From Lysobacterales bacterium (GTDB lineage: Bacteria > Pseudomonadota > Gammaproteobacteria > Xanthomonadales > SZUA-5), in NCBI GenBank assembly GCA_022844135.1, contig JALHMG010000012.1:1-64000 (forward strand): a stretch of 64,000 nt of DNA. The letters are read 5' to 3'. Positions 1,265 to 53,781 of the stretch are shown one piece after another. The notes beneath the pieces were generated by a model, which ran no database searches, was not told the DNA's origin, and was given only the letters and a program-made list of their open reading frames with translations. Positions within the stretch are counted from its first letter, which is position 1. Each line of letters begins with the position of its first letter. Made by a program: the position numbers and the translations under genes.

Positions 1265-1574
1265 TCATCGCAAATTTGCGCCGACAGGCACCATCGCTGA
1301 GTCAAGAAGCGCATGCGCAAGCTGCTTGCGCAGCGATCATTGCCGTTTACCTGCAGACGATCCCAGCGTTGCGGGCGGTCGAAAGCAACCAGGGGCGGCG
1401 GATGCAGGCGTCTTCGACGCCCGCTGGGAACGACGCACCGCTGCTGTGCTGCAGCATCGTCAATCAATGGCACACGCCCTTCACGTACGCGACAGCCAGC
1501 TGGAATCGGGGTAGCCTGGGTCCCGGGGACTCAGGCTGCTCGGGTCGGTTGTGTTCGGATTGGGGGAGACGACG
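1265..1574. other. intergenic stretch, no gene recognised
   Basis: About 310 bases between the RHS remnant and the giant secreted protein. Open frames crossing it have no recognisable protein features. It should contain the promoter of the downstream gene, but no convincing -35/-10 pair could be picked by eye. A GGGGGAG ribosome-binding site lies at its right end (1562-1568). Confidence 0.4.
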
Positions 1575-4500: not shown

Positions 4501-7500
4501 ACGCGCTCGTTGAGCAGCCTGCTGCCAGCAATTTCACCGTGAGGATGTATCCCACCGGCGCACCGCGATCCATCACAGGCGCATTCAACGGCGCGTTGAT
4601 TCGCATGCGCGGTTCGAGCCGCGTCACCATCGATGGATCGCTGGGTGGCGTTGGAACCGACCGCAGTCTCACGATCACCAATACCAGCGTGACGACGCCG
4701 AGCGTCATTCTGTTCGGCTCTATCGGCACCGCGCCGATCACCGGTAACACGTTGAAGAACTGCGTCGTGATCAACGGCGTGAATACCAGTTCTGCCATCC
4801 TCATCTCGGATGCGACCACGGTCGGCAACGCCGGATTCTTCTCGAACATCACGATTCAGAACAACGACGTTCAGCGGGCTTTTGTCGGCGTCTTCGCAAA
4901 CGGCGGCAGCACGCCGCAGAACGGCTCGAATCTGGTCTACACGCAAAACAAGCTCGACACGACGGGCGCGAACGCGATCCGCAACGTTGGTCTGTACATG
5001 CAGGGCGTCAGCGGCGCGACGGTCAGCCAGAACACGGTTGGCAACTTCAGCAACGGCGAGGGCGAGAACGACACCGGAATCTGGTTGGCGACCGGAACTG
5101 GCAACGCCACGGTATCCGGCAATACCGTCACCAATCTGGGCATGACATTGACGTCGGCGTTCGCGCCGATTGGTATTCGCGAGTCCTCCGGGCTTGCCGC
5201 ATCCGGCAACAACATCGCAGGCAACACGATAACCAACCTGTCGACGACTGGCGGTTTCAATCTTCGCGGAATTGCCACCAGCAGCACGGGCATCACCATT
5301 CAAGGCAACCGGATACAGGGCATCCTCAACAATAGTACGGGCACCTTCGGCGCTTTCGGTATCGATGTGACCGCTGGAAACGACTTGGTGATCCGGAACA
5401 ATTTCGTCAGCGACGTGAATCACAATATGTCTGGCGGCGCGGCTTTCACTCCGGACTTCGGTGTCATCGGTATTCGCTTGGGCGCGGGGACAGGTCACCG
5501 CGTGTACCACAATTCGGTCAACCTCTTCGGTCCGCACCCGGGCACGGCGACAACGAGCCTGTTGTCGGCGGCGTTCTCCATCAGCTCGACGTCTCAGACC
5601 GGCATCGACGTCCGCAACAACATTTTTGCGAACAACATCACGGGCGGCACCACGTCCATTGCCCACGTATCTGTATTCCTGCCGAGTGGCGGGACCTCGG
5701 CGATGAATCTGACCTGGAACAACAATGCCTATTACTTCGGCACAGATGCCGCGCGGCAAGGTGTGGCACAGGTGGGCACTACTGCAGGAACCACCTTCTT
5801 CACGACGCTACCTGCCCTGACTGCCTACACCAGCACGCTGTCGGCGAGCGGAAACAACGACAATGCGTCCATTGCGGCGACATCGGCGGTGCCGTTCGTT
5901 TCCGCAACCGATCTCCACTTGTCGGCTCCATTGCCCGTGCAGGGCGTGCCTATCGCCAGTGTGCTGACCGATATCGATGGCGATCCGCGTTCCGCGACGG
6001 CACCGGACATCGGCGCTGACGAGTTGCCGAGAGGCAATCTCACGATCACGCCGAGCGCGGTGAACTTTGGCAATCAACTGGTCGGCACCACCAGCGCCGG
6101 TTTCACAGTCACGCTGGGCAACAATGGCGCCGCATCGCTGATTGTCGATCCGCTCACGGCCGCTGCTGCGCCGTTTGCGCGCTCGGGCGGCACCTGCAGT
6201 GCGCCGCCCATCACCATTGCAGCGGGTGCCAATTGCACGGTGATCTACACCTTCTCGCCGACCGCGACCGGACCGGCCGCGCAAAACTTGACGGTCACAT
6301 CCAGCGGTTCTGGCAGCGGCACGATTGCACTGTCTGGTGTGGGCATTCAAGGCAATCTGGTGATTGCTGGCAGCCCCGTGGCGTTCGGCAGTCAGTTGGT
6401 GGGAACCACCAGTGCCGCGCAAACGGTAACGCTGAGCAACACCGGCACAGCCAGCTTGCAGGTCACCGCGCTCACGGCGGCAACAGCGCCCTTCGCGCGC
6501 GACGGCGGTACCTGCTCGAGTGTGCCGATCACGATCGCCGCCGGCACCGAATGCACGCTCACATACACCTTCGCGCCGGCCGCAATCGGTCCTGCCAATC
6601 AGTTGCTCACTGTCACCGCCGATGCTCCGGGCAGTGGCACGATCGAACTCTCTGGCACCGGCGTGCAGGGCAATCTGACGATCGCGCCGAATGCGGTGAA
6701 CTTTGGCGATCAAGACGTGGGCACCACCAGCGCGGAGCAAACGGTGACCCTGGGCAACAATGGCACCGCGCCCTTGAACGTGACGACGCTGACGGCGGCA
6801 TCCGCGCCGTTTGCGCGCACCAACACGGGCACGTGTTCGGCGGTTCCGATCACGATCAATCCGGGTTCGACTTGCACGCTGACTTACACCTTCGCGCCGA
6901 CCGCAACCGGCGCGGCGAATCAATCGTTGACGGTGACTTCAAGCGGAACCGGAAGCGGCACGATCGCGCTCTCCGGCACTGGCGTGCAGGGCAATCTGAC
7001 GATCACGCCGAGCGCGGTGAATTTCGGCAATCAGGACGTCGGCACCACCAGCGCCGAGCAGACGGTCACCCTGGGCAACAACGGCACGGCGGCATTGAAC
7101 GTGACGGCACTGACTGCCGCGACAGCGCCGTTCGCGCGCACCAACAGCGGCACGTGTTCGGCAGTTCCGATCACCATCAACCCCGGCACGAGTTGCACGT
7201 TGACCTACACCTTCGCACCGACGGTGTCGGGGGCTGCAAACCAGTCGCTGACGGTGACCTCCAGCGGAACGGGCAGCGGTTCGATTGCGCTGTCGGGGAA
7301 CGGAGTGGCCGGCGCTTTCAGCGTGACGCCCAATCCGGTGGCGTTCGGCAATCAGTTGGTCGGAACCAGCAGCGCGACGCAAACCGTGACCTTGAGCAAC
7401 ACCGGTACCGGCTCGCTGCAGGTGACGGCATTGCCGGCGCCGACGGCGCCGTTCGTGCGCAGCGGGGGAACCTGCGGCGCGACGCCGTTTACGTTGACGC

Positions 7501-26254: not shown

Positions 26255-28357
26255 CTACATCTCCGTAACGAATGCCGCGTCAGGGTTGCGGCGGGCTGGG
26301 TCGACTGATTCCAGAGCATCCAGAACGATGTCCGGTGTCAGCAATTGTGGTAACACTTGCGGGGCGCGATTGCCGCCGGGATAGAGCACGTACAGCGGCA
26401 CGCCGGTGCGCTGGAATTGCGCCAGATAGCGTGTGATAGCCTCGTCGCGGCGCGTCCAGTCGCCCTTGATATAGGTCACACCTTTTTCGCGCATCGCCGA
26501 CTGCACCGCGTCCGTACTGAGGGCAACGCGTTCGTTCGCCAGACACGTGATGCACCAGGCAGCCGTCATATTGACCAGCACGGCCTCGCCGCCGGCAACG
26601 CGCGATTGCAAATCGGTGGCGTCGAAAGCGACGCTCGAAGACGATTCCAAGGCAACCGCAGGTTCGTGCGCCACGGCACGCGATAGCGCGTAGCCGCCAG
26701 CACCCAGCGAGAGCAATGCGATCGCCACCGACACACGTCCGCTGTGTGGCGATCCCAAAAGCCATAGCGCCATCGCCAGCGCAACGGCACCGGCGAGCAC
26801 CTGACCCATCGCCATCGCGCCCTGCTGCTCGCCGAAAACCCATACCAACCAAACGGCGCTCAGGTACAGCGGAAACGCCAGAAAGTGCTTGAAGCGATCC
26901 ATCCATGGCCCTGGGCGGGGCAGCCGCGCCGCGAGCGCCGGACTCATTGTGAGCGCGAGATACGGCAGCGCCAGGCCGAATCCGAGCGCTGCGAAGATCG
27001 CCAGCGAAATCGGGGCCGATTGCGTTAGCGCGTAGCCGAGTGCCGCAGCCATCAATGGCGCGGTACATGGGCTCGCCACCACCGCCGCCAGAACGCCGGT
27101 GAAAAACGCCGCACGATCGCTCTCGCCGTCGGTGAGCGCCTGGCCTATGCCCATCCAGCGCTCGCCCACCGTGAACACGCCCGACAAGCTCAAGCCCATT
27201 GCGAAAAACAGGTAGGCGAGCAATGCGACCAGCCAAGGCTCCTGCAATTGAAAGCCCCAACCGAGCGCTTCACCCGATGCGCGCAACGCCAGCAACACAC
27301 CCGCAAGGAGCAGGAAACTCAGCACGACGCCCAGTGTGTAGAACACGCCGTGGCGTGGATGCGCTCCGCCCTGCAGGCTCAGCGCTTTCAACGCCAGCAC
27401 CGGAAACACGCAAGGCATCAAGTTCAAAACCACGCCGCCCAGCAGCGCAAACAGCAGCGCCAACGCAAAGCCCATCGGCGCTTCAGGGGGAGCGTTCGGT
27501 GTGCCCGCCGTCGCATTCGCGGCCGCGACTGCGAGGTTCACGACTTTTGCATCGATCTGCCATGAGCGCGACTGCGGCGGCTTACCCTGTGTGACGACGA
27601 AGTTCACTTGCTCCGGCGCTTTCTGGAAATAGTCGCTGCGCGGCGCGGTCCAGCGCAGAAGGCCGTTGCCCACAGTTGCCGTACCCGGCACATTGGACAG
27701 AATCTCGGTTTGCACTGGAAACAAATCGAACGGCTCGTCGGCAACGAAGCCGTTCGGCAATTCCGACTCGATGGTCACCGAATCGGCGGCAATTTGCGTG
27801 CTGGCGTTAACAACGCTGAAGCTTGGCCAGCGAGCTTTGGCCGCAGCAAAATCCGCTGCGTAGGGTCCAGGTTCGGCGCTCGCTACCACTGGAACTGTCA
27901 AGGCCAACGTGGCCGACCCAGGGATACATTCTTCCTTACAGACCAGCCAATCGATCTTCAATGAAACCGGCAGACTTTCCGCTGTGTAGCCGGCCGGTAC
28001 TCGAACCTCGATCGGCAAGAGCTGGCGGTCGTGATATCCGAAGTTGTACAGCCCCGACAGCTCGAAGCGTTCTGGATGCGGCCATGCGATCTCGCTCGCC
28101 GTGACGCCTTCCGGCAGCGTCCACGTCAGCTTGGTCGGCAGTCCCGAATCGCCAGGATTCAGCCAGTACGTGTGCCACTGCGGCGCATGTTCGAGCAGCA
28201 CGCCCAGCCACAGCGGCTGCCCGCGGGCGTCGGAGATCTCGCGGACCAAGCCCGACTCCGCCACCAGCGTAACCGCAAGCTCTGGCGTCTCCGCACGCTC
28301 TACGGCTCCCGCTGCAAGCGGCAGCAGCAACGACAACGCCACACAAAACGCTTTCAC
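26255..28357 (-). CDS. dsbD: DsbD/ScsB-type thiol:disulfide interchange protein
   Basis: About 700 residues from a GTG at 28357 that is followed directly by a signal peptide (VKAFCVALSLLLPLAAG) and preceded by AGGTGGGG. The N-terminal periplasmic domain carries WLVCKEECIPG. The membrane core begins LLGGVVLNLMPCVFPVLALK (conserved Cys) and has about eight hydrophobic segments with a second Cys in VASPCTAPLM. The C-terminal thioredoxin domain has AAWCITCLANE. This passes electrons from cytoplasmic thioredoxin across the inner membrane to periplasmic thiol proteins. The large N-terminal domain favours the ScsB-like branch over classical DsbD. Confidence 0.9.
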   Translation of the reverse strand: MKAFCVALSLLLPLAAGAVERAETPELAVTLVAESGLVREISDARGQPLWLGVLLEHAPQWHTYWLNPGDSGLPTKLTWTLPEGVTASEIAWPHPERFELSGLYNFGYHDRQLLPIEVRVPAGYTAESLPVSLKIDWLVCKEECIPGSATLALTVPVVASAEPGPYAADFAAAKARWPSFSVVNASTQIAADSVTIESELPNGFVADEPFDLFPVQTEILSNVPGTATVGNGLLRWTAPRSDYFQKAPEQVNFVVTQGKPPQSRSWQIDAKVVNLAVAAANATAGTPNAPPEAPMGFALALLFALLGGVVLNLMPCVFPVLALKALSLQGGAHPRHGVFYTLGVVLSFLLLAGVLLALRASGEALGWGFQLQEPWLVALLAYLFFAMGLSLSGVFTVGERWMGIGQALTDGESDRAAFFTGVLAAVVASPCTAPLMAAALGYALTQSAPISLAIFAALGFGLALPYLALTMSPALAARLPRPGPWMDRFKHFLAFPLYLSAVWLVWVFGEQQGAMAMGQVLAGAVALAMALWLLGSPHSGRVSVAIALLSLGAGGYALSRAVAHEPAVALESSSSVAFDATDLQSRVAGGEAVLVNMTAAWCITCLANERVALSTDAVQSAMREKGVTYIKGDWTRRDEAITRYLAQFQRTGVPLYVLYPGGNRAPQVLPQLLTPDIVLDALESVDPARRNPDAAFVTEM

Positions 28358-28472
28358 CCGAACCCCACCTTTGCCTTCATCTGCCAACAGACCGTAAATA
28401 CGGTACGAAGTTGACAGATCAAGCGTCGTTTCAGCGTGTGCGGCGGGCGGCTGGGCGTTTCTGAGCTTGCCG

Positions 28473-28501
28473 CTTGAAACCCCGGATCGCGCCCCCACCA
28501 T
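28473..28501 (+). promoter_or_regulatory. sigma-32 heat-shock promoter of htpG
   Basis: CTTGAAA at 28473-28479, 13-base spacer, then CCCCACCA at 28493-28500. This matches the sigma-32 consensus CTTGAAA / CCCCATnT closely. The predicted start of transcription falls near 28507, leaving a leader of about 20 bases before the htpG ATG. Confidence 0.8.
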
Positions 28502-36447: not shown

Positions 36448-39400
36448 TCAGGTTTCGACGACCGGCGCGACCGCCTTGGCTGGCCAGCCGCCGCCGCTGT
36501 TGAGCGCGATCCACGCAAGCTTGATCCAACGCACCAGCGAGGCCGCCAGCCATAACGCAAAGGCCAGCATCAGCGCCTTGTACCACCAGATCGAGACGCT
36601 CCAGGCGCTGGCTTGCGGCAATTCACCGATGCTGCGATCGGCCAGCCATGTGAGTCCGCGTTGGCTGCCTTCGATCAACATGTCCGGCGAACCCAGCAGG
36701 CCGTATGGAATGGACACGACGACGGCGATAAAGGTGAGCGCTACCCAGCCGCCGAGCGCCAGTTGTGCGAGCGAGAATTGCCAGGCGCGCAAATTGCCCG
36801 GCAAGTAACGGCGCCTGGCATCAAGCGCGATAAAGGCCACGATCACCATTAGCAAGGCTTCGAGGCTGACCGCCGAAAAACCGATCACCAGCAACAGCCA
36901 ATCGCGCACGCCCAAAAGTGCGCGGCTGCTGCGGCCGAGGCCGTACCCGATCGCGAGCAGCACGATCAGCGTCGACCAATACAGCACGGCCGGGCCAACG
37001 ATCGGGCCGGCCAGCCGCAGCACCCAGCGGTCTGCCGGTAGCGCCAGCGACAGGTTGACGTTGGCCGCCTCCATGCCCACATCCATCGCAGGCGTGAAAC
37101 TATGCAGCGCCACCGGTACGTCTTCGCGCCAACTGAGCGCGATGGTCTGTAAGCCGGGTTTGATCGGCACGCCAAGCGCTCCCTGATCGGGGCGCAGGTT
37201 CATCGCCTGACCGTCGATCTCAAGCGACAACAGCTCCGCCTCGGGTGGCAAGTGCAGCGTATGGCTGCCGCCTTGCGTGGCGCGCACGGTCAATCTCAGC
37301 GTGTGCGTGCGCGTGCGCTTGCCGATCTCTGTGAACAGCGTCAGCGCGTCGGCTACCATGGTGGCCCCAGGCACTGCCGCCGGGCGCGACAGTTTCAGGG
37401 TCAACGTTTCGCCCGGCAGCGGCTGGAACTGGCTCACCCAAAGCTCGTTGTCGTTGATCCCACCGTCGGGCTCCGAGGCCGGCACGCCGCTGTGCGCGAG
37501 GGAGAAACTCGGGCCGACGACCACACGCCAGATTTCACTGCGCGCGGACTGGTCGGGTGCGGTGAGGCTCAGGCTGTCGAGCCGCTCAAGTCGAGAACTG
37601 AACGTGTACTGGAGTTCGCCGGGCGGCAGCGGGACCTCTACCGAACCATCCTCTACCTTCAGCGCCGTATCTTGCAACTGTTCGCCATCAATCAAGGGCA
37701 CACGCACGGAAAAGCCGCCATCGGCGGGCGCCACACGTTCGATACGCGTTTCCACAGTCCAGTCGAGTTCGAAGCGCAGTTCGCGCACCACGCGCACGAA
37801 GGGCCTGATCGGTACACGGACGGCACTGCCGATCGCGCCTTCTGACGTCGCTTCGCGGACCAACTCCAGGCGATCCGCCAACAGGCGGCCGTCGCGCACA
37901 CCGCCGCTGGTCCAGCCAGGCGCGTCGATGGCGATCGATCCCGGCGGCAACGCGAACTCGAGCGTGAGGCCTTCGCCGCGAATCTCGCCAGACAGCACCG
38001 CGCGGTGCACGCCACGCTCAAAAGGCGCGACGCCCTCGCCGGACAGCGGCGCTGGGGCGCCATCGATACTCAGGCTCACGTTCGCCAGCGCCGTGTCGTC
38101 GAGCGGTAGCGGCACCAGTACGCGCTCAGCGGCGTGGACGTCCAACGTCAACTCAAATCGATCGCCGCTGATCCGCGCTACGGCCTCGGGAATGCTCGCG
38201 CATTGACCCGCGCATGTGGGCGGCACAGTCAGGCGCGCGTGGTACTCGGTCAGCAGCTCCGGCGAAGGAATGTCGCTCGCTTGCGCGGGGCTCATGATCA
38301 GCGCCAGCGCGCCGAGCAGCGCCTTGCTGGGGCGATGCGTGCGCCACAAATGCAACGCGATCCATGCCAGCGCTACGATGAGCAGCCAACGCCACAGCGC
38401 GGTCATCCACGGCGGCGAAAGCCACAGGCGCAGCGATTGGTCCTTGGCGATTGGGCCATCGAAGCGTAACCATGCCGAGGCCCAGGTCCAGGTGGGGCGA
38501 GCATTGCCGGCTTGGATCACAGCGTCCTTGGCGTAGCGTTCCACTTTGCGCCCCACGCGCGAGCGCTCGATATCGATACCTTTCATGGCGCTTTCGACAA
38601 CGTTCTGCTGAAAGGCATCCGCGGTCGGCGGCGGTGGCGGCGGTGGCGGTGGCGGGGCTCCCGGCATCGGAGCAGCCGCGGGGTCTGACTGGCCCTGCCA
38701 CGGCGCGATGATCGCGCTACTCGCCAACTGCGGATGCAACGCATAGCGCGCCTGCGTCATCGCGAACGACATCGCGAACAACACAAATGGTATCGAGAGA
38801 AGTGCGCACAAGCCCAACGTCAGTGCGCGGAGTCTTCCAGGGGCCAGAGCGCGCAGCGCCAGCAGCGCCAGCAACAACGCGATCAAGCTGTAGCGTGGCA
38901 CACCCGGCTCGTGCGCACCGAGCACGGTCAAAGCACCCACGCCAAGCGCCAGCATGGGGCCGCCCACGCGCCATGCCAGCACGGTGAGGAACGCAGCAAT
39001 GAAAACCGTGTAGATGCTCCACTGCGCGATCCAGGCGTTGCCCACGGCATCCGGGCCCGACGCGTGCAGCAATCGATAGCCCGGTGGCAAATTGAGATTG
39101 ATCGACAATGCATCCAGGCGCTCGCTCCAGCCATGCGCCGGCATTCTGGCCAGCTTGCCGAGACGCGCTGTTGTGCTCACATCCAACCACGGATAGCGCA
39201 CCTCAATGCCTCGATTGTCTGGGGCGCCCGTCACCAGAAGTGGCTCGCCGCGCTCCGATGCGCTGGATAACTCGAAAGGCGATGCCAGATCGAGACGAAA
39301 GCCTTCGCGCATCGAGCCGCTGAGGCGATCGACCACGGTGTATCCGCTACCGTCGAAATCGAGCCACATGTCGCGACTGAGCGACAAGCGATTGCTGCTC

Positions 39401-40392
39401 TGGCCGAAGCCGCGACTGCGTTCGGTGAGACTGAGCGCATCACTGTTCTGAATGGTGAAAGCGGGAAATGCCCGCCAGTCATCGGGCACACTGGCTTGCG
39501 CCGGATCGATGGGCGCCGCGCCGGTCACGTCGACCACCCGCAGTCGCGGATTCGCCTCGAAACTCCAGACTTCGGTGTCCGGCCAGTTTTCGTCCGGAAA
39601 CTCGAAGCGCAATTCGTTGCGGGGCGCCAGTGCACGGGTTTGGACATCCAGCGTGTAACTTCCTGCCGTGGCCTGCACGCGCAGCCGGCGGTCGGGTTCC
39701 ACAACAACCGGCAAATCGCCGCCGATCGACATCAGCTCGAAATCCTCGGGCCACGCCGGACCCAGCCGGATTTCGCGCGCCTTGCCGGCTACGTGCAATG
39801 TGAGTTGCGTGGTCAGTTGCTGCGGTTGGCGATCGCTCCATAAACGATGAACTTCAAGTTCCAGCGCATCGCGTTCGGTGGCGATCTCAGCGCGCGACAG
39901 CCATAGCGTTGTGCCTTCGCGGTTCAACGGAAAAACCGGGCTTCCATCTACGAGCAGTTGAATCAGGCGGTATTGATCTGGCACCTGCAGCGACTCAAAG
40001 CCGCCGCTGGGCGCCGGCAGCTCATAGGTCAGTGTGTAGCGACCGGCAGCCAGCCAGGTCTTCGCGCTTTCGAGCACTGCGGCGGTGCCGTTTACCTTCA
40101 GATCGCGAGCGCTGCGCTCGGCGCCGATCAAAGGCACATAACCGCTTGCATACAACCAGACTTCGCTCTCGATGCGCGCGTCGCCATCGATACGAATAGT
40201 GGTCGCGCCGGGTAAAACACAGGCGACTTGCGTCTCGTCCAGCGGCGATCGATTGGCAAAGAAGGGACAGGTTCGCCACGGCTCCGCATGCATCACCCAT
40301 TCGCGCCACTCGGCCAGCGAGGCCGGTGCGCGCGGCTCGGCGGCGCATAGCGACAGCGACCAAAACAACAGCAACCACGGCGCGAGACGCAT
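36448..40392 (-). CDS. large multipass membrane protein of unknown function
   Basis: 1314 residues with a signal peptide (MRLAPWLLLFWSLSLCAAEP). A 440-residue periplasmic part precedes a membrane block (WSIYTVFIAAFLTVLAWRVG; YSLIALLLALLALRALA; LGLCALLSIPFVLFAMSFAM), then a proline run (ten Pro in PGAPPPPPPPPPPTADAF). After that come one more membrane segment, a second large periplasmic beta-rich part, and about six C-terminal membrane segments. Two exported halves separated by membrane blocks suggest an envelope assembly or sensing role, but no domain could be named. The Pro run should need EF-P for translation. Ends convergent with the efflux gene. Confidence 0.75.
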   Translation of the reverse strand: MRLAPWLLLFWSLSLCAAEPRAPASLAEWREWVMHAEPWRTCPFFANRSPLDETQVACVLPGATTIRIDGDARIESEVWLYASGYVPLIGAERSARDLKVNGTAAVLESAKTWLAAGRYTLTYELPAPSGGFESLQVPDQYRLIQLLVDGSPVFPLNREGTTLWLSRAEIATERDALELEVHRLWSDRQPQQLTTQLTLHVAGKAREIRLGPAWPEDFELMSIGGDLPVVVEPDRRLRVQATAGSYTLDVQTRALAPRNELRFEFPDENWPDTEVWSFEANPRLRVVDVTGAAPIDPAQASVPDDWRAFPAFTIQNSDALSLTERSRGFGQSSNRLSLSRDMWLDFDGSGYTVVDRLSGSMREGFRLDLASPFELSSASERGEPLLVTGAPDNRGIEVRYPWLDVSTTARLGKLARMPAHGWSERLDALSINLNLPPGYRLLHASGPDAVGNAWIAQWSIYTVFIAAFLTVLAWRVGGPMLALGVGALTVLGAHEPGVPRYSLIALLLALLALRALAPGRLRALTLGLCALLSIPFVLFAMSFAMTQARYALHPQLASSAIIAPWQGQSDPAAAPMPGAPPPPPPPPPPTADAFQQNVVESAMKGIDIERSRVGRKVERYAKDAVIQAGNARPTWTWASAWLRFDGPIAKDQSLRLWLSPPWMTALWRWLLIVALAWIALHLWRTHRPSKALLGALALIMSPAQASDIPSPELLTEYHARLTVPPTCAGQCASIPEAVARISGDRFELTLDVHAAERVLVPLPLDDTALANVSLSIDGAPAPLSGEGVAPFERGVHRAVLSGEIRGEGLTLEFALPPGSIAIDAPGWTSGGVRDGRLLADRLELVREATSEGAIGSAVRVPIRPFVRVVRELRFELDWTVETRIERVAPADGGFSVRVPLIDGEQLQDTALKVEDGSVEVPLPPGELQYTFSSRLERLDSLSLTAPDQSARSEIWRVVVGPSFSLAHSGVPASEPDGGINDNELWVSQFQPLPGETLTLKLSRPAAVPGATMVADALTLFTEIGKRTRTHTLRLTVRATQGGSHTLHLPPEAELLSLEIDGQAMNLRPDQGALGVPIKPGLQTIALSWREDVPVALHSFTPAMDVGMEAANVNLSLALPADRWVLRLAGPIVGPAVLYWSTLIVLLAIGYGLGRSSRALLGVRDWLLLVIGFSAVSLEALLMVIVAFIALDARRRYLPGNLRAWQFSLAQLALGGWVALTFIAVVVSIPYGLLGSPDMLIEGSQRGLTWLADRSIGELPQASAWSVSIWWYKALMLAFALWLAASLVRWIKLAWIALNSGGGWPAKAVAPVVET

Positions 40393-45577: not shown

Positions 45578-47620
45578 ATGTCGTGGGGACTTCAGACGAG
45601 CAGGGGGCTTCAAGTTGCGCTTTTTGCGCTGACGCTGACGGCGTGCGGCGGTGGCAGTGGCCCTGACACCGCGGGCACCGCGCCGCCCCCAGCAACGGCG
45701 CCGCCGCCGGGCTGCACGGGATCGTGCGCCAATGCGCAGTCGTTCCTGACTGCAGCCGAGGTCAATACCGTCATCGCCCAGGCGGTAGCCGAAGCCACGG
45801 CCAACAGCGCGCCCGCAACCATCGCGGTGGTCGATCGCGTCGGCAATGTGCTCGCGGTGTATCGCATGACGGGTGCACGAGCGCTGGTCAATATCAACTC
45901 CAACCGCAATGTTGTGGGCGGGCTGGAGAACTTGAACGTGCCGAGCGAATTGGCCGCGATCGCCAAAGCGATTACTGGTGCGTATCTTTCCAGCGAAGGC
46001 AACGCCTTCTCGACGCGCACTGCCAGCCAGATCGTCCAGGAGACGTTCAATCCCGGCGAAAGCAATGCGCCTTCGGGGCCGCTATTCGGCGTGCAGTTCA
46101 GCCAATTGCCGTGCTCGGATTTCATGCAGCGCTTTACAACAGGGCAGGCACCGGGCGTAGGCCCGAAACGCTCGCCACTCGGATTGTCCGCAGATCCGGG
46201 CGGTTTTCCGTTGTACAAGAACGGCGTACCGGTGGGCGGCGTTGGGGTGGCCGCCGATCCCTTGTACACCTTGGATCGCCGTATCCTGGATCGCGATCGA
46301 GACATCGACGAAATGATCGCGCTGGCGGCCACGTTTGGCTTCGGTGCACCCGCAGACCGTCGCGGCGATGTGATTACGGCAGATGGCAAAACCTTTCGCT
46401 ATACCGATGTCGAATATGCCGAGTTGGCGAGGGCGCCGGGTAATGCGCCGGCATTGACACCGGCCAATGGCGGATTGATCCGCGTGCCCGCCTATGCCGA
46501 TGCGGTCGTGCGCGACGGCACGGCCTTCGGACAGCCGGCATCGGGCATTCGCGCGGCGGACAGCAATCTCTCGGACCTCGACGCGTTCATCATCGTCGAT
46601 GCCAATAACCAGAACCGATTCGCCCCGCGCGGTGGCACCGAAGGTTCCGGTGCGCTCACCGCGAATGAGGCGCTCACCGTGCTGCGCGAGGCGCTCAAAG
46701 TCGCCAATCGAGCCCGAGCGCAGATTCGCCAACCCTTTGGTAGCCAGGCGCGCGTCAGTTTCTCGGTCGTCGATACGCGGGGCACGGTTCTGGCGCTGGC
46801 GCGGACGCGCGATGCGCCGGTGTTCGGCCTGGATGTGAGTCTGCAAAAAGCACGCTCGGCGGCGTTTTTCTCCAACGCGGCCGCTGCGGCTGATCTGGCC
46901 AGTCTGCCGCCCGCAACCTATTTCGGGTCGGCGCTGAATGCGCAAGGTCTGCAGTTGACCACGGTGGGAAGCACCACGCTCGCCTCGTACACAGCACGAA
47001 CGCGCGACTTCCTGGGATCGCCCACTGCGTTAGGCGACGGTGCAGTCGCTTATGCCAATCGTTCCGTGGGCAATCTGGCGCGACCTTTCTATCCGGATGG
47101 GATCATCGGATTGCCGGCAGGTCCCTTGTCGAACGAGTTCGATTCCTGGAGCCCATTCGATGTCGGCATCCAATTGGATCTGGCTTACAACCAGTTGGCG
47201 TTGCATGTCGCGCACTACATCAACCAGCTGGGCCTGGCGCTGTTCCTCGATGGCCGCCCGCTGGCGCCGGCCCCGACGGCACAAAACCCCGTGCCGCTGC
47301 CCGATATCGGCTTTAGCTGTACGGGATTGCCGCGCATCGCGAACGGCATCCAGATCTTTCCCGGTAGCGTGCCCATTTATCGCGGCGAGCAATTGGTCGG
47401 TGCGATCGGCATTTCCGGCGATGGTGTCGATCAAGACGACATGATCGCCTTCCTTGGCCTGCACAACGCCGGCCTTGCGTTAAATGGCGCGATCGGCAAT
47501 GCGCCGCCGGGGCGGCGTGCCGATCAGCTGGTGCCGCGCGGTGCACGACTGCGTTACGTGCAGTGCCCACAGGCACCCTTCATCGATAGCAACGAGCAGA
47601 ACGTCTGCGGGGGCAAATGA
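45578..47620 (+). CDS. lipoprotein with two HbpS/GlcG (DUF336) domains
   Basis: 680 residues. A lipobox ALTLTACGGGS predicts a lipid-anchored protein, followed by a Pro/Gly linker. Domain 1 (about 55-260) has LTAAEVNTVIAQAVAEA, IAVVDRVGNVLAVYRM and PLYKNGVPVGGVGVA. Domain 2 (about 350-660) has NEALTVLREALKVANRA, FSVVDTRGTVLALARTRDA and VPIYRGEQLVGAIGISGDGV. These are the HbpS/GlcG fold, members of which bind heme or act in redox stress sensing. First gene of a five-gene run with one-base or overlapping junctions. A heme- or redox-related role beside the cytochrome is inference from context. Confidence 0.82.
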   Translation: MSWGLQTSRGLQVALFALTLTACGGGSGPDTAGTAPPPATAPPPGCTGSCANAQSFLTAAEVNTVIAQAVAEATANSAPATIAVVDRVGNVLAVYRMTGARALVNINSNRNVVGGLENLNVPSELAAIAKAITGAYLSSEGNAFSTRTASQIVQETFNPGESNAPSGPLFGVQFSQLPCSDFMQRFTTGQAPGVGPKRSPLGLSADPGGFPLYKNGVPVGGVGVAADPLYTLDRRILDRDRDIDEMIALAATFGFGAPADRRGDVITADGKTFRYTDVEYAELARAPGNAPALTPANGGLIRVPAYADAVVRDGTAFGQPASGIRAADSNLSDLDAFIIVDANNQNRFAPRGGTEGSGALTANEALTVLREALKVANRARAQIRQPFGSQARVSFSVVDTRGTVLALARTRDAPVFGLDVSLQKARSAAFFSNAAAAADLASLPPATYFGSALNAQGLQLTTVGSTTLASYTARTRDFLGSPTALGDGAVAYANRSVGNLARPFYPDGIIGLPAGPLSNEFDSWSPFDVGIQLDLAYNQLALHVAHYINQLGLALFLDGRPLAPAPTAQNPVPLPDIGFSCTGLPRIANGIQIFPGSVPIYRGEQLVGAIGISGDGVDQDDMIAFLGLHNAGLALNGAIGNAPPGRRADQLVPRGARLRYVQCPQAPFIDSNEQNVCGGK

Positions 47621-47621
47621 C

Positions 47622-49412
47622 ATGAGCCTGTGCTTATCGCTTGCCCTCACCGCCGCCGGCCTTTGCCCGCCGGCACCCAATGCCGATCTCATGGCGATGG
47701 AGACGCTGATCGGCGGATCGCTGCCGGCGTATCTGTACGACCCTGACGAAGTCAAGATCGTTCGTCGCCGGCCTGGGCATCCGCCCCCGAAGTCGCGGCA
47801 TCGTCCGGATCAAAACGTCACCAACGCCGATCCGGCGCCGATTGATGCGGTGGGCGACTTTATTCCAGTGCCAGATCGCTGGCGCATCATGGAGTCGTTG
47901 GGTTTCAAACATCCATGGTACGACCCGTACAACCAGAACATCTGGAAAGGCGACAAGCCAATCCATGACGACGACTGGTTTCTGAGTCTGCTGGCGATCA
48001 GCGACACCGTGCTTGAGCCGCGTTCGATCCCGACGCCGGTCGGACCGCAAGCGTCGGAGAACCCCGGCGCGGTGGATATTTTTGCCGGTGGCGATCAGAC
48101 CATCCTGTCGCAAACGGTACTGGCGGGTCTGGTCTATTACAAAGGCAACACCACGTTCAAGCCCCCGGCGTACGAGTACCGGCTTACGCTGGCGCTCAAC
48201 TACAATCGCGTCGACATCGACGATGTGCGTGGTCTCAATATCGACCCGCGTCTTGGCAACACGCGCGACGATGGCTTTATCGCGTTGCAGGAAGTGTTCG
48301 CCGATATTCACTTGCGCGACGTTTCGCCGCGCTACGATTTCGACGCGATCCGCTTCGGTATCCAGCCGTTCTCAAGCGACTTCCGCGGTTTCCTCTTCCA
48401 AGATCTGCAGTTCGGCGTGCGCCTCTTCGGCAATCGCGACAACAACAAGAAGCAGTACAACCTGGCGTGGTTCCGCCGCGTCGAGAAGGACCTCAATTCC
48501 GGTTTGAATGATGTCGCGGAAGGCTTGCGCGACGACGACATCCTGATCGCCAACTATTACTGGCAGGACCTCGGCATCGTCGGTTTCACCTCGCAAGCCA
48601 CGCTGGTCTACAACCGCAATCGCGAGACCGATCTCTTCTTCGATTCGAACGGATTCATCCAGCGCCCGTCATCCTTGGGCACCGAACGGCCGCGCGAATA
48701 CGATGTGGCTTACCTTGGCTACAACGGCGATGGCCGCATCGGCTGGTTGAATCTGTCGGCCAGCGCTTATTACGCCTTCGGCAACAATGATGGCACCTTC
48801 ACCGGCCGCGACAGCGACGTGCGCGCCGGCTTTTTCGCGGCTGAACTGTCGCGCGATTACGACTGGATTCGCCCACGTCTGTCGATCGCTTACGCCAGTG
48901 GCGATGATGATCCTTTCGACGATCGCAGCAATGGTTACGACGCGATTTTCGAGAACCCGATTTTCGCCGGGGCGGATACCAGCTATTGGATTCGGCAGAA
49001 CGTGCCGCTGATCGGTGGTGGCGGTGTGACCTTGGCGTCGCGCAACGGCATCTTGAACTCGATGCGTTCGTCGAAAGAGCAGGGTCAGTCGAACTTCGAC
49101 AATCCGGGTCTGCGCCTGATCGGTTTCGGCGCCGATTTCGACCTCACGCCAGAGTCGCGCGTGTCGTTCAACGTCAATCAATTGTGGTTCGACGAAACGG
49201 CCGTGCTGGAAGCCGCACGCAATCAGGCGCCCATCGATCGCGAAATCGGTACCGATGTGTCTGTTGCCTGGATCTGGCGCCCGTTCATGACCCAGAACAT
49301 CGTCTTCCGACTGTCTGGCGCAGCGCTTGAGCCGGGCGACGGTATGACCGATTTGTTTGGCGACGACGACACCTACTACACGGTGTTGGGCAATGTGATT
49401 TTTACCTACTGA
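47622..49412 (+). CDS. outer-membrane beta-barrel protein (porin/alginate-export-like)
   Basis: 596 residues from ATG 47622, one base after the upstream stop. A short hydrophobic start (MSLCLSLALTAAGLC) may be a signal peptide. From about residue 170 on there are alternating amphipathic strands rich in Tyr, Phe and Asp (YRLTLALNYNRVDIDD, DAIRFGIQPFSSDFRGF, GWLNLSASAYYAFGNND). It ends YYTVLGNVIFTY, with the terminal aromatic of Omp85-inserted barrels. The number of strands (roughly 16-18) was not determined. By position it could be the pore that houses the cytochrome next door, as MtrB houses MtrA, but it is smaller than MtrB and shows no obvious MtrB/PioB likeness. Confidence 0.8.
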   Translation: MSLCLSLALTAAGLCPPAPNADLMAMETLIGGSLPAYLYDPDEVKIVRRRPGHPPPKSRHRPDQNVTNADPAPIDAVGDFIPVPDRWRIMESLGFKHPWYDPYNQNIWKGDKPIHDDDWFLSLLAISDTVLEPRSIPTPVGPQASENPGAVDIFAGGDQTILSQTVLAGLVYYKGNTTFKPPAYEYRLTLALNYNRVDIDDVRGLNIDPRLGNTRDDGFIALQEVFADIHLRDVSPRYDFDAIRFGIQPFSSDFRGFLFQDLQFGVRLFGNRDNNKKQYNLAWFRRVEKDLNSGLNDVAEGLRDDDILIANYYWQDLGIVGFTSQATLVYNRNRETDLFFDSNGFIQRPSSLGTERPREYDVAYLGYNGDGRIGWLNLSASAYYAFGNNDGTFTGRDSDVRAGFFAAELSRDYDWIRPRLSIAYASGDDDPFDDRSNGYDAIFENPIFAGADTSYWIRQNVPLIGGGGVTLASRNGILNSMRSSKEQGQSNFDNPGLRLIGFGADFDLTPESRVSFNVNQLWFDETAVLEAARNQAPIDREIGTDVSVAWIWRPFMTQNIVFRLSGAALEPGDGMTDLFGDDDTYYTVLGNVIFTY

Positions 49413-49915
49413 TGAAAACGCGATACCCCATGGTTCGGCAGCCGAATTCGGTTCCTAATGCCTTTGGCGCCGAGTTCCCGGTAGAGCGAACTAGGCAATT
49501 CGATAACGGCCGGTCGCGTCCAAACCGCGCTCGCCGCAACGTTGAATTTGCGCGGCACCTGCGCCGCTATATGACCGACCCGGAGCGAGTGCTGTGGCGC
49601 GTTCTCAGGAATCGCTGGTTTTCTGAACTCAAGTTTCGTCGCCAGCACCCGTTCCCGCCTTACGTACTCGATTTCGTTTGCATTGAACGCAAGCTCATCG
49701 TTGAACTCGACGGCGGAAGACATGCCTTGACCAGGCATCGCGACGCAAAGCGCGATGCGTTTTTCGCCGAGATCGGATTCACGACGCTGCGGCTTTCGAC
49801 CAACGATTTGTACCAGCGCCGCGATGATGTGTTGAACGTCATTTGGGTCGCGGCCTATGGCCAGTCAAAACACTTCCCGCCTATCCAGCATGGCGAGATT
49901 CTGAGGTACACATGA
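49412..49915 (+). CDS. DUF559 endonuclease-fold protein
   Basis: 167 residues. RYMTDPERVLWRVLRNRWF, KFRRQHPFPPYVLDFVCIER and KLIVELDGGRHALTRHRD are the conserved DUF559 (Vsr-like, PD-(D/E)xK) core with the D...ExD metal residues. IGFTTLRLSTNDLYQRRDDV closes the domain. Such genes are usually lone accessory genes. Here the start shares one base with the barrel stop and the stop overlaps the cytochrome start (ATGA), so it sits inside the operon without a gap. A 45-residue N-terminal extension precedes the domain. Why a nuclease belongs here is unclear. Confidence 0.88.
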   Translation: MKTRYPMVRQPNSVPNAFGAEFPVERTRQFDNGRSRPNRARRNVEFARHLRRYMTDPERVLWRVLRNRWFSELKFRRQHPFPPYVLDFVCIERKLIVELDGGRHALTRHRDAKRDAFFAEIGFTTLRLSTNDLYQRRDDVLNVIWVAAYGQSKHFPPIQHGEILRYT

Positions 49916-52900
49916 CAATCGCTCGACGCACATCACTACTTGTGGTTCTGCTTCTGATCGCCCCACTCGCCCACGCTGCCGACGAGTTGATTCCAGTCGA
50001 GCGTGACTACGTGACGGCGCCGGATGCGCCGGCGCACCAAACGTGGGCGCAAGCCGATGCAAAGAGCGCTGGCTGCATGAGCTGCCATTCGGCGGTGGAT
50101 CAGAAGACGATGCATGCCTCACCTGCGGTCGTCCTGGGATGCACCGACTGCCACGGCGGCGATGCGAATGTCGTTGGTCCCAAAGACCACAAGGGCCACG
50201 TTGCGGTCGCACCAGGTCACGGCGCAGATGCCGATGTCGGTCACGATCACAGCAGCTACGCGCCCGATTACCTGGCGGCGATGGAAAAAGCGCACGTGTT
50301 GCCGCGCTATCCGGAGGCCTGGCATTACCCGCGGTCGAGCAATCCCGAGCGGACCTACACGCTGCTCAACAAGGAAGCGCCCGAGTTCACGCGCTTCATG
50401 AATCCCGGTGATTTGCGCATCGCACACGAGGCCTGCGGTGCGTGCCATATGCCAATCATCGAAGCGGCCAAACGTTCGATCATGGCCTCGTCGGCGATGC
50501 TCTGGGGCGGCGCCGCATACAACAACGGTATTTTGCCGTACAAGCGCTACATTCTCGGCGAAGCGTATACACGCGAAGGCGAGGCGGCGACGATCACCTC
50601 CCTGGTGCCGGTGACCCCGGAGATGCAAGTGCGCGGCGCGCTGCAGCAATTAGTGCCATTGCCGGCGTGGGAAGTCATTCCGCCGGGCGATATTTTCCGC
50701 GTTTTCGAACGCGGTGGACGCAACATCAACACCACTTTCCCTGAAACCGGTTTGCCCAACTCTTTGGGGCAGATTCAGCGCCTGGAAGAGCCCGGGCGCC
50801 CCGACATCAAGCAGTCCAACCGTGGTCCGGGCACCGGACAGCGCATTGCGGTGCCGGTGATCAATATTCTCAAGACGCGTCTGAATGACCCGAACATGTG
50901 GTTCCTGGGCACCAACGATCAGCCCGGCGATTTCCGCAATTCGGGCTGCACCGCGTGCCACGTGCCGTACGCGAATGATCGCGATCCGCGCCACTCCGGG
51001 CCGTACGTCAATGCGGGCCACATGGGCCAGAGCCAGCAGGTCGATCCGACCATTCCCAAAGACCGCCCCGGCCACCCGATCAAACACGCCTTCACGCGCT
51101 CGATCCCGACCAGCCAATGCATGATCTGCCACATGCATCAGCCGAATATGTTCGTCAATACCTTCCTTGGCTACACGATGTGGGACTACGAGTCCGATGC
51201 GCCATTCATGTGGCCCGAGAAGCAGCAGTACCCGAGCCACGTGGAGATGCGTAAAGCACTCGATCGCAATCCTGAGGAAGCCGTGATTCGCGGCAAATGG
51301 GCGGATCTGGAGTTTGTCAAAGATGTCGCCAAGCTCAATCCGCAGCTCAAGGACACGCAGTTCGCCGACTATCACGGCCACGGTTGGAACTTCCGCGCCA
51401 TCTTCAAACGCGATCGCAAAGGCAACTTGCTGGACGCCGGTGGCAATCTGGTCGACGACAACGATCCGAAGAAGTTCGAGAAAGCGGTCCACATGTCGTC
51501 GATTCACGTCGACGTCGGAATGCACTGCGTCGACTGCCATTTTGCGCAGGACATGCACGGTAACGGTCACGTCGTTGGCGAGGTGGCAGCGGGCGTCGAG
51601 ATCGGCTGCAAGGATTGCCACGGCACGCCAGACAAATACCCGAACCTGATCACCTCTGGCCCGATGGCGAGCAAGCAAGGTCGCAACCTATTGGATTTGC
51701 GCAACCCGGATGGCAAGAAGCGCTTCGAATGGATCGGCGATAAGCTGATCCAACGCTCGATCATGACGCCAGGTTTGGAGTGGGAGATGTCGCTGGTCAA
51801 GGACACTTCCAATCCGAGCAGCGCAGCGTACAACGTCGTGGCGGATCGCGCGCACACCATGAGCCGCGACACCGCCAGTCAAGCCTTCGGTATTGATGTC
51901 AAGCCCGCCGACTACGCGCATGGCGAAGACAAAATGCTGTGCTATTCGTGCCACACCAGTTGGACCACCAGCTGCGGCGGCTGTCATTTGCCAATCCAGG
52001 CCAACTGGAAAACCGAACGTCATCACTACGAGGGTGGCGTGACGCGCAATTACGCCACGTATAACCCCCAAGTCGCGCGCGACGACGTATTCATGCTCGC
52101 GAAGCACGGCGAGGTCAAGGACTACAAGATCGCCCCGTTGCGGTCCAGCTCGGCGCTGATTTTGTCGAGCACCAACAGCAATCGCGAGAAGATTTACATT
52201 CAGCAGCCGCCGATCGCGGCCTCCGGCTACTCAAGTCAGGCTATGGCGCCGCACTATCCGCACACTGAGCGGCGCACCGAGACCAAAACCTGCACCGATT
52301 GCCACGTCTCCAAGGACGGCGATAACAACGCGATCATGGCCCAGCTGCTAGGTCACGGTACCAAGTTCATGGACTTCCTGGGCTACAACGCCTGGGTCGG
52401 CGGCAGCGGCGAAGTCAGTGCGATTCGCGTGACCGAATGGGAAGAGCCGCAAGCCGTGATTGGCAGCTTCCTGCACAAATATGCCTACCCCGACTGGTAT
52501 GCCGAACACCAGGAGCGTGGCAAACAGCTCAGCGAGGCTTACCAGCACAGCGCCGGGGAGGCTAACTGCATTCAGTTGCGTGGTGAGTATTTGTACGTCG
52601 CAGAAGGCAGCAAGGGCATGCGGGTTTACGATGTCGCCAGCATCGCCAATAAAGGCGTCAGCCAGCGCATCATCACCGCGCCGTTCTCGCCGTTGGGCCA
52701 CGACACACACATCCCAACGAAGAACGCGACGTGCGTGGTCCTGCCGACGACGCAGCCGGTTCAACCTTCGCGCAATGAGGGTGATTTGATGCGCAAGGAA
52801 AACCTCGAACAGCCTGCCGCGGCGATTTATCGCTATGCCTTCATCACCGACAGCGAAGAGGGTCTGATCGTTATCGACATCGACTCGCTGTACGATGGCG

Positions 52901-53781
52901 AGCCGCGCGACAATTTCCTCGAACGGACGATCACCTGGAACGACAACGGCGTGCTGAACGGCGTGCGGCACCTGGCGATTGCCGGCAACTGGTTCTACGC
53001 GACCACGCCGCGGGGGGTTGAGGTCATCGACATGACCGATCCGCTCAAGCCGCGCCACGTGCGCTCAGTCGCTTTGCCCGATGCGCGCGCCAGTCAGCAG
53101 CAATTCCGCTACCTGTTCGTTACCACTGGCCGCGGGCTCGAAGTGCTCGATATCACTCATCCAGACAAAGCCTACGTTGTGCCCGACGCATTCATCGCCG
53201 TCGCTGACGCGCACAAGTTGCATGTTGCCCGCACCTTCGCCTACGTCGCGGCTGGTGCCGAAGGTTTGGTAATCGTCGACGTCACCAAGCCGACGCGCCC
53301 CACGCTCTATCAACGCTTCAACGGCGATGGCGCGATCTCCGACGCGCGCGACGTGACCGTGGCTTCAACCAACGCATCGTTGTATGCCTATGTGGCCGAC
53401 GGCAAAAACGGCTTGCATGTCGTGCAGTTGACCGGCCCCGAGAATCAGCCGAAGTTCTATGGCTACAGCCCCGATCCAAAACCGGTGCTGATCGCTTCGC
53501 GCCAGACCGCGAAACCCGCGCTGTCGTTGTCGCGCGCGTTGGAACGCGATCGCGCCGTCGATGAAACCGGCGGTCAGATCGCCGTGCTCGGTCGCGTCGG
53601 ATCGCGCCCATTCACCGGCGAGGAGCAGCGCGCGTTCTATCTCGACGCCAATGGCAATCCCTGGACCGTCAGCGACAAAGTCGACGGCCCGCGCGGCATT
53701 ACGACCAAACCGTTGCCGTTCAAAAACAACCGCATTATGGAAATGCAGCGCGGCACGCAGAGCGCCGGGATGCCGCATTGA
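49912..53781 (+). CDS. decaheme cytochrome c fused to LVIVD beta-propeller
   Basis: 1289 residues from ATG 49912, with a signal peptide (RTSLLVVLLLIAPLAHAADE). Ten CxxCH heme sites at about residues 55 (CMSCH), 77 (CTDCH), 175 (CGACH), 346 (CTACH), 403 (CMICH), 539 (CVDCH), 566 (CKDCH), 677 (CYSCH), 688 (CGGCH) and 794 (CTDCH). From about 880 to 1230 there are six or so LVIVD-type blades: YLYVAEGSKGMRVYDVA, AFITDSEEGLIVIDID, YATTPRGVEVIDMTDP, FVTTGRGLEVLDITHP, YVAAGAEGLVIVDVTKP and YVADGKNGLHVVQL. The long spacers between hemes differ from the compact MtrA fold. Likely periplasmic or surface electron carrier. The propeller may dock a partner or substrate. Confidence 0.92.
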   Translation: MTIARRTSLLVVLLLIAPLAHAADELIPVERDYVTAPDAPAHQTWAQADAKSAGCMSCHSAVDQKTMHASPAVVLGCTDCHGGDANVVGPKDHKGHVAVAPGHGADADVGHDHSSYAPDYLAAMEKAHVLPRYPEAWHYPRSSNPERTYTLLNKEAPEFTRFMNPGDLRIAHEACGACHMPIIEAAKRSIMASSAMLWGGAAYNNGILPYKRYILGEAYTREGEAATITSLVPVTPEMQVRGALQQLVPLPAWEVIPPGDIFRVFERGGRNINTTFPETGLPNSLGQIQRLEEPGRPDIKQSNRGPGTGQRIAVPVINILKTRLNDPNMWFLGTNDQPGDFRNSGCTACHVPYANDRDPRHSGPYVNAGHMGQSQQVDPTIPKDRPGHPIKHAFTRSIPTSQCMICHMHQPNMFVNTFLGYTMWDYESDAPFMWPEKQQYPSHVEMRKALDRNPEEAVIRGKWADLEFVKDVAKLNPQLKDTQFADYHGHGWNFRAIFKRDRKGNLLDAGGNLVDDNDPKKFEKAVHMSSIHVDVGMHCVDCHFAQDMHGNGHVVGEVAAGVEIGCKDCHGTPDKYPNLITSGPMASKQGRNLLDLRNPDGKKRFEWIGDKLIQRSIMTPGLEWEMSLVKDTSNPSSAAYNVVADRAHTMSRDTASQAFGIDVKPADYAHGEDKMLCYSCHTSWTTSCGGCHLPIQANWKTERHHYEGGVTRNYATYNPQVARDDVFMLAKHGEVKDYKIAPLRSSSALILSSTNSNREKIYIQQPPIAASGYSSQAMAPHYPHTERRTETKTCTDCHVSKDGDNNAIMAQLLGHGTKFMDFLGYNAWVGGSGEVSAIRVTEWEEPQAVIGSFLHKYAYPDWYAEHQERGKQLSEAYQHSAGEANCIQLRGEYLYVAEGSKGMRVYDVASIANKGVSQRIITAPFSPLGHDTHIPTKNATCVVLPTTQPVQPSRNEGDLMRKENLEQPAAAIYRYAFITDSEEGLIVIDIDSLYDGEPRDNFLERTITWNDNGVLNGVRHLAIAGNWFYATTPRGVEVIDMTDPLKPRHVRSVALPDARASQQQFRYLFVTTGRGLEVLDITHPDKAYVVPDAFIAVADAHKLHVARTFAYVAAGAEGLVIVDVTKPTRPTLYQRFNGDGAISDARDVTVASTNASLYAYVADGKNGLHVVQLTGPENQPKFYGYSPDPKPVLIASRQTAKPALSLSRALERDRAVDETGGQIAVLGRVGSRPFTGEEQRAFYLDANGNPWTVSDKVDGPRGITTKPLPFKNNRIMEMQRGTQSAGMPH

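Follow-up and report, generated by a model that had tools for sequence, protein, structure and literature searches.

What is the role of a protein chain that carries ten c-type heme sites and an LVIVD beta-propeller, and with which partners does it work? The question is raised by a gene, here called c0, in a stretch of 64,000 nucleotides (the window) from a Lysobacterales bacterium (assembly GCA_022844135.1, contig JALHMG010000012.1, positions 1 to 64,000). The fusion of hemes and propeller is real and stable in the c0 family, and the conserved gene set in which c0 is found is a stronger finding than the fusion itself. We consider it fairly probable that c0 serves, on the outer-membrane side, as the large electron-transfer subunit of an envelope system with two modules. 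The features of c0 are as follows.

49912..53781, forward strand: decaheme-LVIVD cytochrome of 1289 residues, c0 (open frame, Pfam, motif count, homologues)
49912..49977, forward strand: signal peptide ending AHA, without a lipobox (by eye)
50074..52305, forward strand: heme region with ten CXXCH in residues 55-798, homologous to stand-alone ExtM-related cytochromes (motifs, alignment)
52378..53550, forward strand: beta-propeller with LVIVD repeats, residues about 823-1213 (Pfam, model, structure matches)

The frame that ends at 53781 is open from a TTG at 49843 (1312 residues), and starting at the ATG at 49912 gives 1289 residues with a signal peptide. It holds exactly ten CXXCH motifs, at residues 55, 77, 175, 346, 403, 539, 566, 677, 688 and 794, and a motif scan of c0 found none of the variants CXCH, CX3CH and CX4CH. 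LVIVD (PF08309) is matched at 69.4 bits (E 1.6e-19) against a Pfam gathering cut-off of 20.2, and the further Pfam matches are to Cytochrome_C7 (27.6 bits, cut-off 24.8) and Cytochrome_C554 (24.3 bits, cut-off 20.8). The original prediction, made from the window's letters, of ten hemes and LVIVD in one chain of 1289 residues is borne out by these counts, as are the uneven gaps of 11 to 171 residues that it gave for the heme sites (successive spacings of 22, 98, 171, 57, 136, 27, 111, 11 and 106). Its description of this spacing as unlike the compact MtrA and OmcA types is correct for MtrA but not for OmcA, since MtrC and OmcA have a number of residues per heme close to the value of about 74 in c0. 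A search of the window's own genome with c0 returned a single match, c0 itself, and a search of solved structures gave one weak match (6lod_A, E 0.0071).

Stability of the fusion was followed in 53 aligned c0 homologues with 60-81% identity to the window protein, residues being numbered as in the latter (alignment number + 23). Every Cys and His of the ten CXXCH sites is invariant across these sequences, so that the fusion is not a matter of chance; such conservation across homologues also rules out an annotation error. Thirteen further His, at residues 68, 128, 388, 392, 409, 488, 490, 532, 549, 670, 781, 784 and 866, are invariant in all 53 and are candidate distal ligands. LVIVD is matched by Pfam in each of the 53 ten-CXXCH members (27 of 27 and 26 of 26). 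Of 93 loci scanned, 89 have a frame with all ten CXXCH. Among these, L151 is ExtM-like and lacks LVIVD, and in the other 88 c0 is a single open frame of at least 1150 residues with all ten motifs (one with an undetermined residue). The remaining five comprise a copy cut by a contig end, a wrong-frame pick (L036) and three ExtM-like sequences without LVIVD.

Upstream of c0 in the window, and on its strand, lie three genes, two of which are assigned here to an outer module.

47622..49412, forward strand: outer-membrane barrel of 596 residues, c1, modelled as an 18-strand AlgE-like porin (model, structure matches)
45578..47620, forward strand: protein with HbpS-like (PF03928) matches and a lipobox-like LTAC, c2 (open frame, Pfam, motif)
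49412..49915, forward strand: DUF559 gene between barrel and c0, probably outside the system (open frame, Pfam, gap comparison)

The company kept by c0 elsewhere was surveyed by a locus scan of one genome per species (84,980 genomes), which gave at least 594 pattern matches, at least 586 of them encoding a c0 relative. Gene content was determined in the best 80 of these by score, with partner genes mapped by tblastn and counted on the strand of c0. The sequence upstream of c0 extends for 9 kb or more in 54 loci. All 54 have the HbpS protein and the barrel; 53 have a second decaheme cytochrome, 53 a cytochrome-b-like protein, 51 a flavoprotein of the FAD-cNMP-Fer type and 31 a C554-type protein, and PP2C and FHA proteins are found in 14 and 13, respectively. 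Of those whose flanks are long both upstream and downstream, only L025 lacks the decaheme and cytochrome b. The barrel and c0 genes are also closely spaced, with a gap of at most 72 bp in 77 of the 79 loci measured and of 19 bp in a genus mate of the window's organism (L156), and for this reason the DUF559 gene (49412-49915, forward strand), which overlaps the barrel and c0 genes by a few bases each, looks like a neat insertion between the two. The model of c1 (pLDDT 79.0) has about 18 strands, counted by eye. Its best fold matches are AlgE and OprD-type channels, led by the alginate exporter AlgE (5d5d, Z 28.6, root-mean-square deviation (rmsd) 3.0, 365 residues aligned, 15% identity), and the assignment as an 18-strand barrel is one by fold only, no sequence-family match having been found in Pfam.

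The inner module is well illustrated by Parahaliea maris (L037), in which Pfam identifies Pyr_redox, two cNMP-binding and several 4Fe-4S domains in the flavoprotein, whereas the cytochrome-b-like protein matches cytochrome b561 weakly, at 19.0 bits against a cut-off of 30.1; the decaheme cytochrome is present too, and a C554-type protein, PP2C and FHA follow downstream of c0. In the window's genome the flavoprotein, cytochrome-b-like protein and second decaheme lie together on contig C5. Here the cytochrome-b-like protein has no Pfam match, and the second decaheme has 35% identity to that of P. maris and an FHA match below the cut-off (17.4 against 20.7 bits). Four Cys sets are present in each of the four flavoprotein sequences inspected; in the flavoprotein alignment no Cys reaches 95% conservation, probably from truncated frames. 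An NRR..F.R-type motif, which would bear on a preference for NADPH over NADH, occurs in 23 of 67 flavoprotein copies, including that of the window's genome. The second decaheme has ten further His, one per heme, that are conserved in at least 95% of 61 copies and invariant in 27. In all 55 copies of the C554-type protein longer than 400 residues, four CXXCH are accompanied by a CX4CH, one copy having two CX4CH. Flavoprotein and cytochrome b form one open frame in two genomes of one genus, of 1118 and 1122-1123 residues. These flavoprotein-cNMP-ferredoxin/cytochrome-b fusions (L160 5850-9203 and L161 3052-6420) are followed by a decaheme-type cytochrome, and c0 was not found in the two genomes.

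By record title, the 80 loci belong to Alpha-, Beta- and Gammaproteobacteria and a few others, although the titles of metagenome bins can err (Bordetella parapertussis is the title of two loci, Klebsiella pneumoniae that of one) and some loci and genomes are the same assembly and thus not independent (for example L021 and L005, each on a 58355-base contig). Culturable hosts of c0 relatives, again by title, include Parahaliea, Haliea, Limnobacter, Steroidobacter and Pseudoteredinibacter, and also Sphingobium. Counting named isolates (Limnobacter, Parahaliea, Sphingobium), the fusion is present in three classes. Several of the named hosts are regarded as ordinary heterotrophs and not as metal respirers. 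Among 61 relatives, 21 have c0 (E 1e-257 or better, with weak partial matches in five more), 22 have the barrel, 21 have the second decaheme (plus a weak match in G036) and 20 have all three; in G038, c0 and the barrel are on an 8991-base contig and the second decaheme is without a match. In a draw of 398 genomes across the phylum, with limits of 0.001 for c0 and 1e-20 for both the barrel and the second decaheme, c0 was full-length in 11, the barrel was found in 12 (the same 11 and G019), the second decaheme in 15 (these 12 with G061, G093 and G210) and all three in 11. Moreover, c0 is matched over at least 80% of its length on 13 large plasmids, 12 from Sphingobium and one from Sphingopyxis, and three of the 15 plasmid records matched are typed conjugative, suggesting that the system may move on plasmids. 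The sole plasmid opened, pMSHV of S. herbicidovorans (L158), carries c0 and its partners, the inner ones on the opposite strand.

The heme half of c0 has relatives of its own. The c0 profile gave some match in 20 of the 398 genomes, the 11 full-length ones and nine partial; of the partial matches, five involve the heme half and the other four are confined to the propeller. The heme-half matches are four 12-heme cytochromes of 783-854 residues (L150, L152, L153 and L154) and L151, with ten CXXCH, and Pfam found LVIVD in none of the five. In an alignment of nine sequences, each of the ten sites of c0 falls on one of the twelve in the 12-heme proteins; the two sites absent from c0 lie just before its fourth and at the C-terminus, and the extra His 128, 392, 532, 549 and 784 are common to all nine. 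The ExtM profile (NF040943, cut-off 800) gives 225.5-237.9 bits for L150, L153 and L154 and 52.4 bits for c0. As every c0 site matches one in 12-heme ExtM-related cytochromes that lack LVIVD, the uneven spacing is, on the evidence of the alignment, inherited from ExtM-like relatives, and the propeller is what differs. The occurrence of the two halves as separate genes, which had been named as an argument against a dedicated fusion, is found in part: the cytochrome half exists alone elsewhere, but within the c0 family the halves do not part. Close to the ExtM-related gene of L154 are bc1-like genes and a gene for a protein with five CXXCH, identified by eye in both cases.

From gene content, co-occurrence, spacing, motifs and predicted folds, we infer an electron path, its direction and a docking role for the propeller. 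The outer module would consist of the AlgE-like porin barrel, the HbpS-domain protein, which in this window has a lipobox, and c0 itself. The inner module would comprise a cytosolic flavoprotein, using NAD(P)H and FAD, with cNMP bound by two of its domains and [4Fe-4S] clusters held by four Cys sets, together with the cytochrome-b-like protein and an anchored decaheme with an FHA-like N-terminal region as its membrane parts. Electrons would most likely flow outward, from NAD(P)H through FAD, iron-sulfur clusters and b hemes to the anchored decaheme. From there they would cross the periplasm and reach the LVIVD cytochrome, which would sit at the barrel with its propeller as the docking face, before passing to an acceptor at the outer membrane or further out. 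In loci that have it, the C554-type protein, with its four CXXCH and single CX4CH, is likely to be a periplasmic carrier, and the presence of cNMP, FHA and PP2C domains suggests that the flow is gated by signals.

The propeller is the best-modelled part of c0. AlphaFold2 gave a mean pLDDT of 70.4 and a pTM of 0.76 for residues 24-1223, with 27 of 39 ten-residue blocks of the propeller (model residues 801-1190) above a pLDDT of 85. In structure the propeller is matched best by 1l0q, a YVTN propeller from an archaeal surface-layer protein (Z 28.9, rmsd 2.2, 274 residues aligned), and second-best by a designed protein titled seven-bladed; 1l0q is seven-bladed as well. LVIVD follows the hemes as originally predicted, but the blade number is less certain: the prediction gave about six, Pfam marks four stretches, and the designed protein is titled seven-bladed. 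In its match to 1l0q, and in having LVIVD repeats above the cut-off, c0 is similar to the LVIVD/YVTN surface beta-propellers, but differs from them in the fusion to a decaheme cytochrome. The invariant His and Cys of the propeller region are His 866, Cys 886 and Cys 941, and no larger conserved set of metal ligands was found there among the 53 homologues. A catalytic copper or heme propeller of the N2O reductase or cytochrome cd1 type was rejected, the propeller having no conserved His set; cytochrome cd1 (1aof_B) comes 48th in the Foldseek ranking, which contains many other propellers. Since the propeller has one invariant His, two invariant Cys and no larger ligand set, docking seems more likely than catalysis, and the propeller probably docks. 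Of the earlier suggestion of a dedicated docking or catalytic module, "dedicated" agrees with the conserved gene set, and the few invariant ligands favour the first of the two functions.

Several observations weigh against the assignment of c0 to such a system. The counts over the 80 best-scoring loci lean towards close relatives, and in both the window's genome and a genus mate (G001) the inner genes are on a separate contig from c0. In G019 the barrel, HbpS protein and inner module are present and c0 has no match in the assembly; the contig ends 333 bases after the barrel gene (L157 12054-12386), and no c0 start is encoded in that interval. Here c0 may have been lost or displaced into unassembled sequence, and G019 may be a real exception. 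In the stretches examined from G061, G093 and G210, flavoprotein, cytochrome b and decaheme occur without c0 or the barrel, and because three genomes have the inner genes in this form, the inner module can serve other ends. The c1 model has 18 strands and an AlgE-like fold, as opposed to the 26-28 strands of MtrB, which leaves a heme wire through the barrel unproven; on this model an Mtr-like plug of the size of c0 in an 18-strand barrel seems doubtful. A lipobox-like pattern ahead of the first heme is found in two of 92 c0 loci, with none seen by eye in the window protein, and c0 may stay in the periplasm. The lipobox pattern of the HbpS protein is itself present in 46 of 76 loci, some misses being truncated frames and others plain signal peptides. 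In addition, the heme half of c0 is only moderately modelled, much of it at lower pLDDT.

Of the alternatives, the one that survives best is that c0 itself acts in the periplasm as a terminal reductase, its substrate being a soluble oxyanion or a small oxidant that the porin merely admits. The AlgE and OprD-type channels among the fold matches of the barrel would suit such a role, as would the distant relation of the heme half to ExtM, to which three ExtM-like relatives score higher than c0. In Geobacter, ExtI has been proposed to let selenite in, and its loss is reported to lower selenite and tellurite reduction (PMC5877670). However, neither Pfam nor NCBIfam places c0 above the cut-off of any enzyme family, and its ten canonical CXXCH with 13 invariant His would be enough for two His per heme, although the latter, being read from motifs, is a weak point. 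We regard a reductase role as unlikely, while giving it appreciable weight. Less probable still is an inward chain, in which c0 would oxidise an extracellular or periplasmic donor and either NAD(P)+ or the quinone pool would receive the electrons, by analogy with the porin-cytochrome systems of iron oxidisers. Electron uptake through porin-cytochrome systems has been described (PMC6831781, PMC12016527), and direction is not fixed by the parts alone; nevertheless, there is no coupling subunit among the recurrent gene families mapped, and the cNMP and FHA domains would suit a valve on NAD(P)H outflow. Reduction of NAD(P)+ from mild donors also requires an input of energy, which counts against this chain. 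It is very improbable that the gene set is mainly a heme-handling or redox-sensing complex whose cytochromes report redox state, as might be suggested by the HbpS-like domains (heme degradation being what gives HbpS-type proteins their name) and by the domains of the cluster that bind cNMP or, in part of the loci, are of the PP2C and FHA types, for about 25 heme sites in three cytochromes and an iron-sulfur flavoprotein seem excessive for a sensor.

The preferred reading of c0, as an electron-transfer subunit at the outer membrane, invites comparison with known conduits. The extHIJKLMNOPQS cluster of Geobacter sulfurreducens, reported to encode the porin ExtI, 12-heme ExtM, 10-heme ExtN, an iron-sulfur protein, cytochrome b and a rhodanese-like lipoprotein (PMC5877670, PMC6148476), is the nearest described system and is alike in outline, both sets having a porin, multiheme cytochromes, a cytochrome b and an iron-sulfur protein, with the heme half of c0 distantly related to ExtM. 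The two differ in that c0 has ten hemes, not twelve, and an added LVIVD propeller, and in that the present set has HbpS in place of rhodanese, an AlgE-like barrel, an NAD(P)H-cNMP flavoprotein and an FHA-decaheme. The present set is not a member of the Ext system, because c0 misses the ExtM equivalog cut-off, the barrel is without a family match, and the lipoprotein and inner module differ. With the Mtr/Mto/Pio conduits the set shares a barrel gene adjoining decaheme cytochrome genes, but its barrel models with 18 strands and c0 lacks a lipobox and an OmcA/MtrC family match, the profiles TIGR03507 and PF22113 giving no match to c0 at E up to 1. An Mtr-type conduit was rejected for the barrel on the lack of a PF11854 or other Pfam match and on the AlgE-like fold; MtrB_PioB (PF11854) had no match in the window's own genome, a weak control, as the profile matched in one of 14 genomes and above cut-off in none. 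PF22113 (MtrC/MtrF domains II/IV) is matched at E 0.001 or better in 11 of the 53 c0 homologues and above cut-off in four of five ExtM-like relatives, and for this reason a remote link of c0 to that superfamily is possible. The barrels of the Geobacter Pcc conduits (OmbB-OmaB-OmcB, ExtABCD) are reported to have 18-22 predicted strands (PMC4245776), with 18 in ExtB (PMC6148476), in line with c1, and these conduits have separate periplasmic and outer cytochromes; they differ from the present set in that c0 is not a lipoprotein and has a propeller, and in the NAD(P)H module found in the same gene set here.

No description of the gene set, or of a multiheme cytochrome with LVIVD, was found in the literature covered, in which LVIVD papers were judged by title and the start of the abstract and subscription journals were mostly outside coverage. 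The present cluster may be among the 440 novel multiheme gene clusters reported in PMC11475568. An LVIVD-bearing PQQ-domain protein of Methanosarcina barkeri is reported to be up in direct interspecies electron transfer (PMC6315138), and mtrCAB-like genes have been reported in Woeseiaceae (PMC12175321).

On a broader view, the gene set might represent a widespread and undescribed way for Alpha-, Beta- and Gammaproteobacteria to export electrons at the expense of NAD(P)H, in which a signal-gated inner module (cNMP, FHA and sometimes PP2C) would feed an AlgE-like porin and a decaheme propeller cytochrome and offer a route for redox chemistry outside the cytoplasm, for example with metals, metalloids, oxygen or polymers; this proposal is tentative and falls somewhat short of probable. 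If true, Proteobacteria would commonly possess a path for electrons through the envelope that has signalling domains and a cytosolic entry point for NAD(P)H of its own, given the at least 586 stretches counted by their c0 relative rather than by the full gene set. It would also provide a candidate, ready for knock-out, for extracellular or periplasmic redox activities that lack known enzymes, and a test case for propeller docking of a multiheme cytochrome.

Elsewhere in the window, a frame of 2804 residues (1551-9965, forward strand) has many matches to ASH/HYDIN-type Ig-like domains, which are better known from cilia proteins, and an open frame of 1314 residues (36448-40392, reverse strand) has no Pfam match at E 1e-5. 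A DsbD-like thiol:disulfide protein with a cytochrome c biogenesis domain is encoded at 26255-28501 (reverse strand), 17 kb from the HbpS gene.

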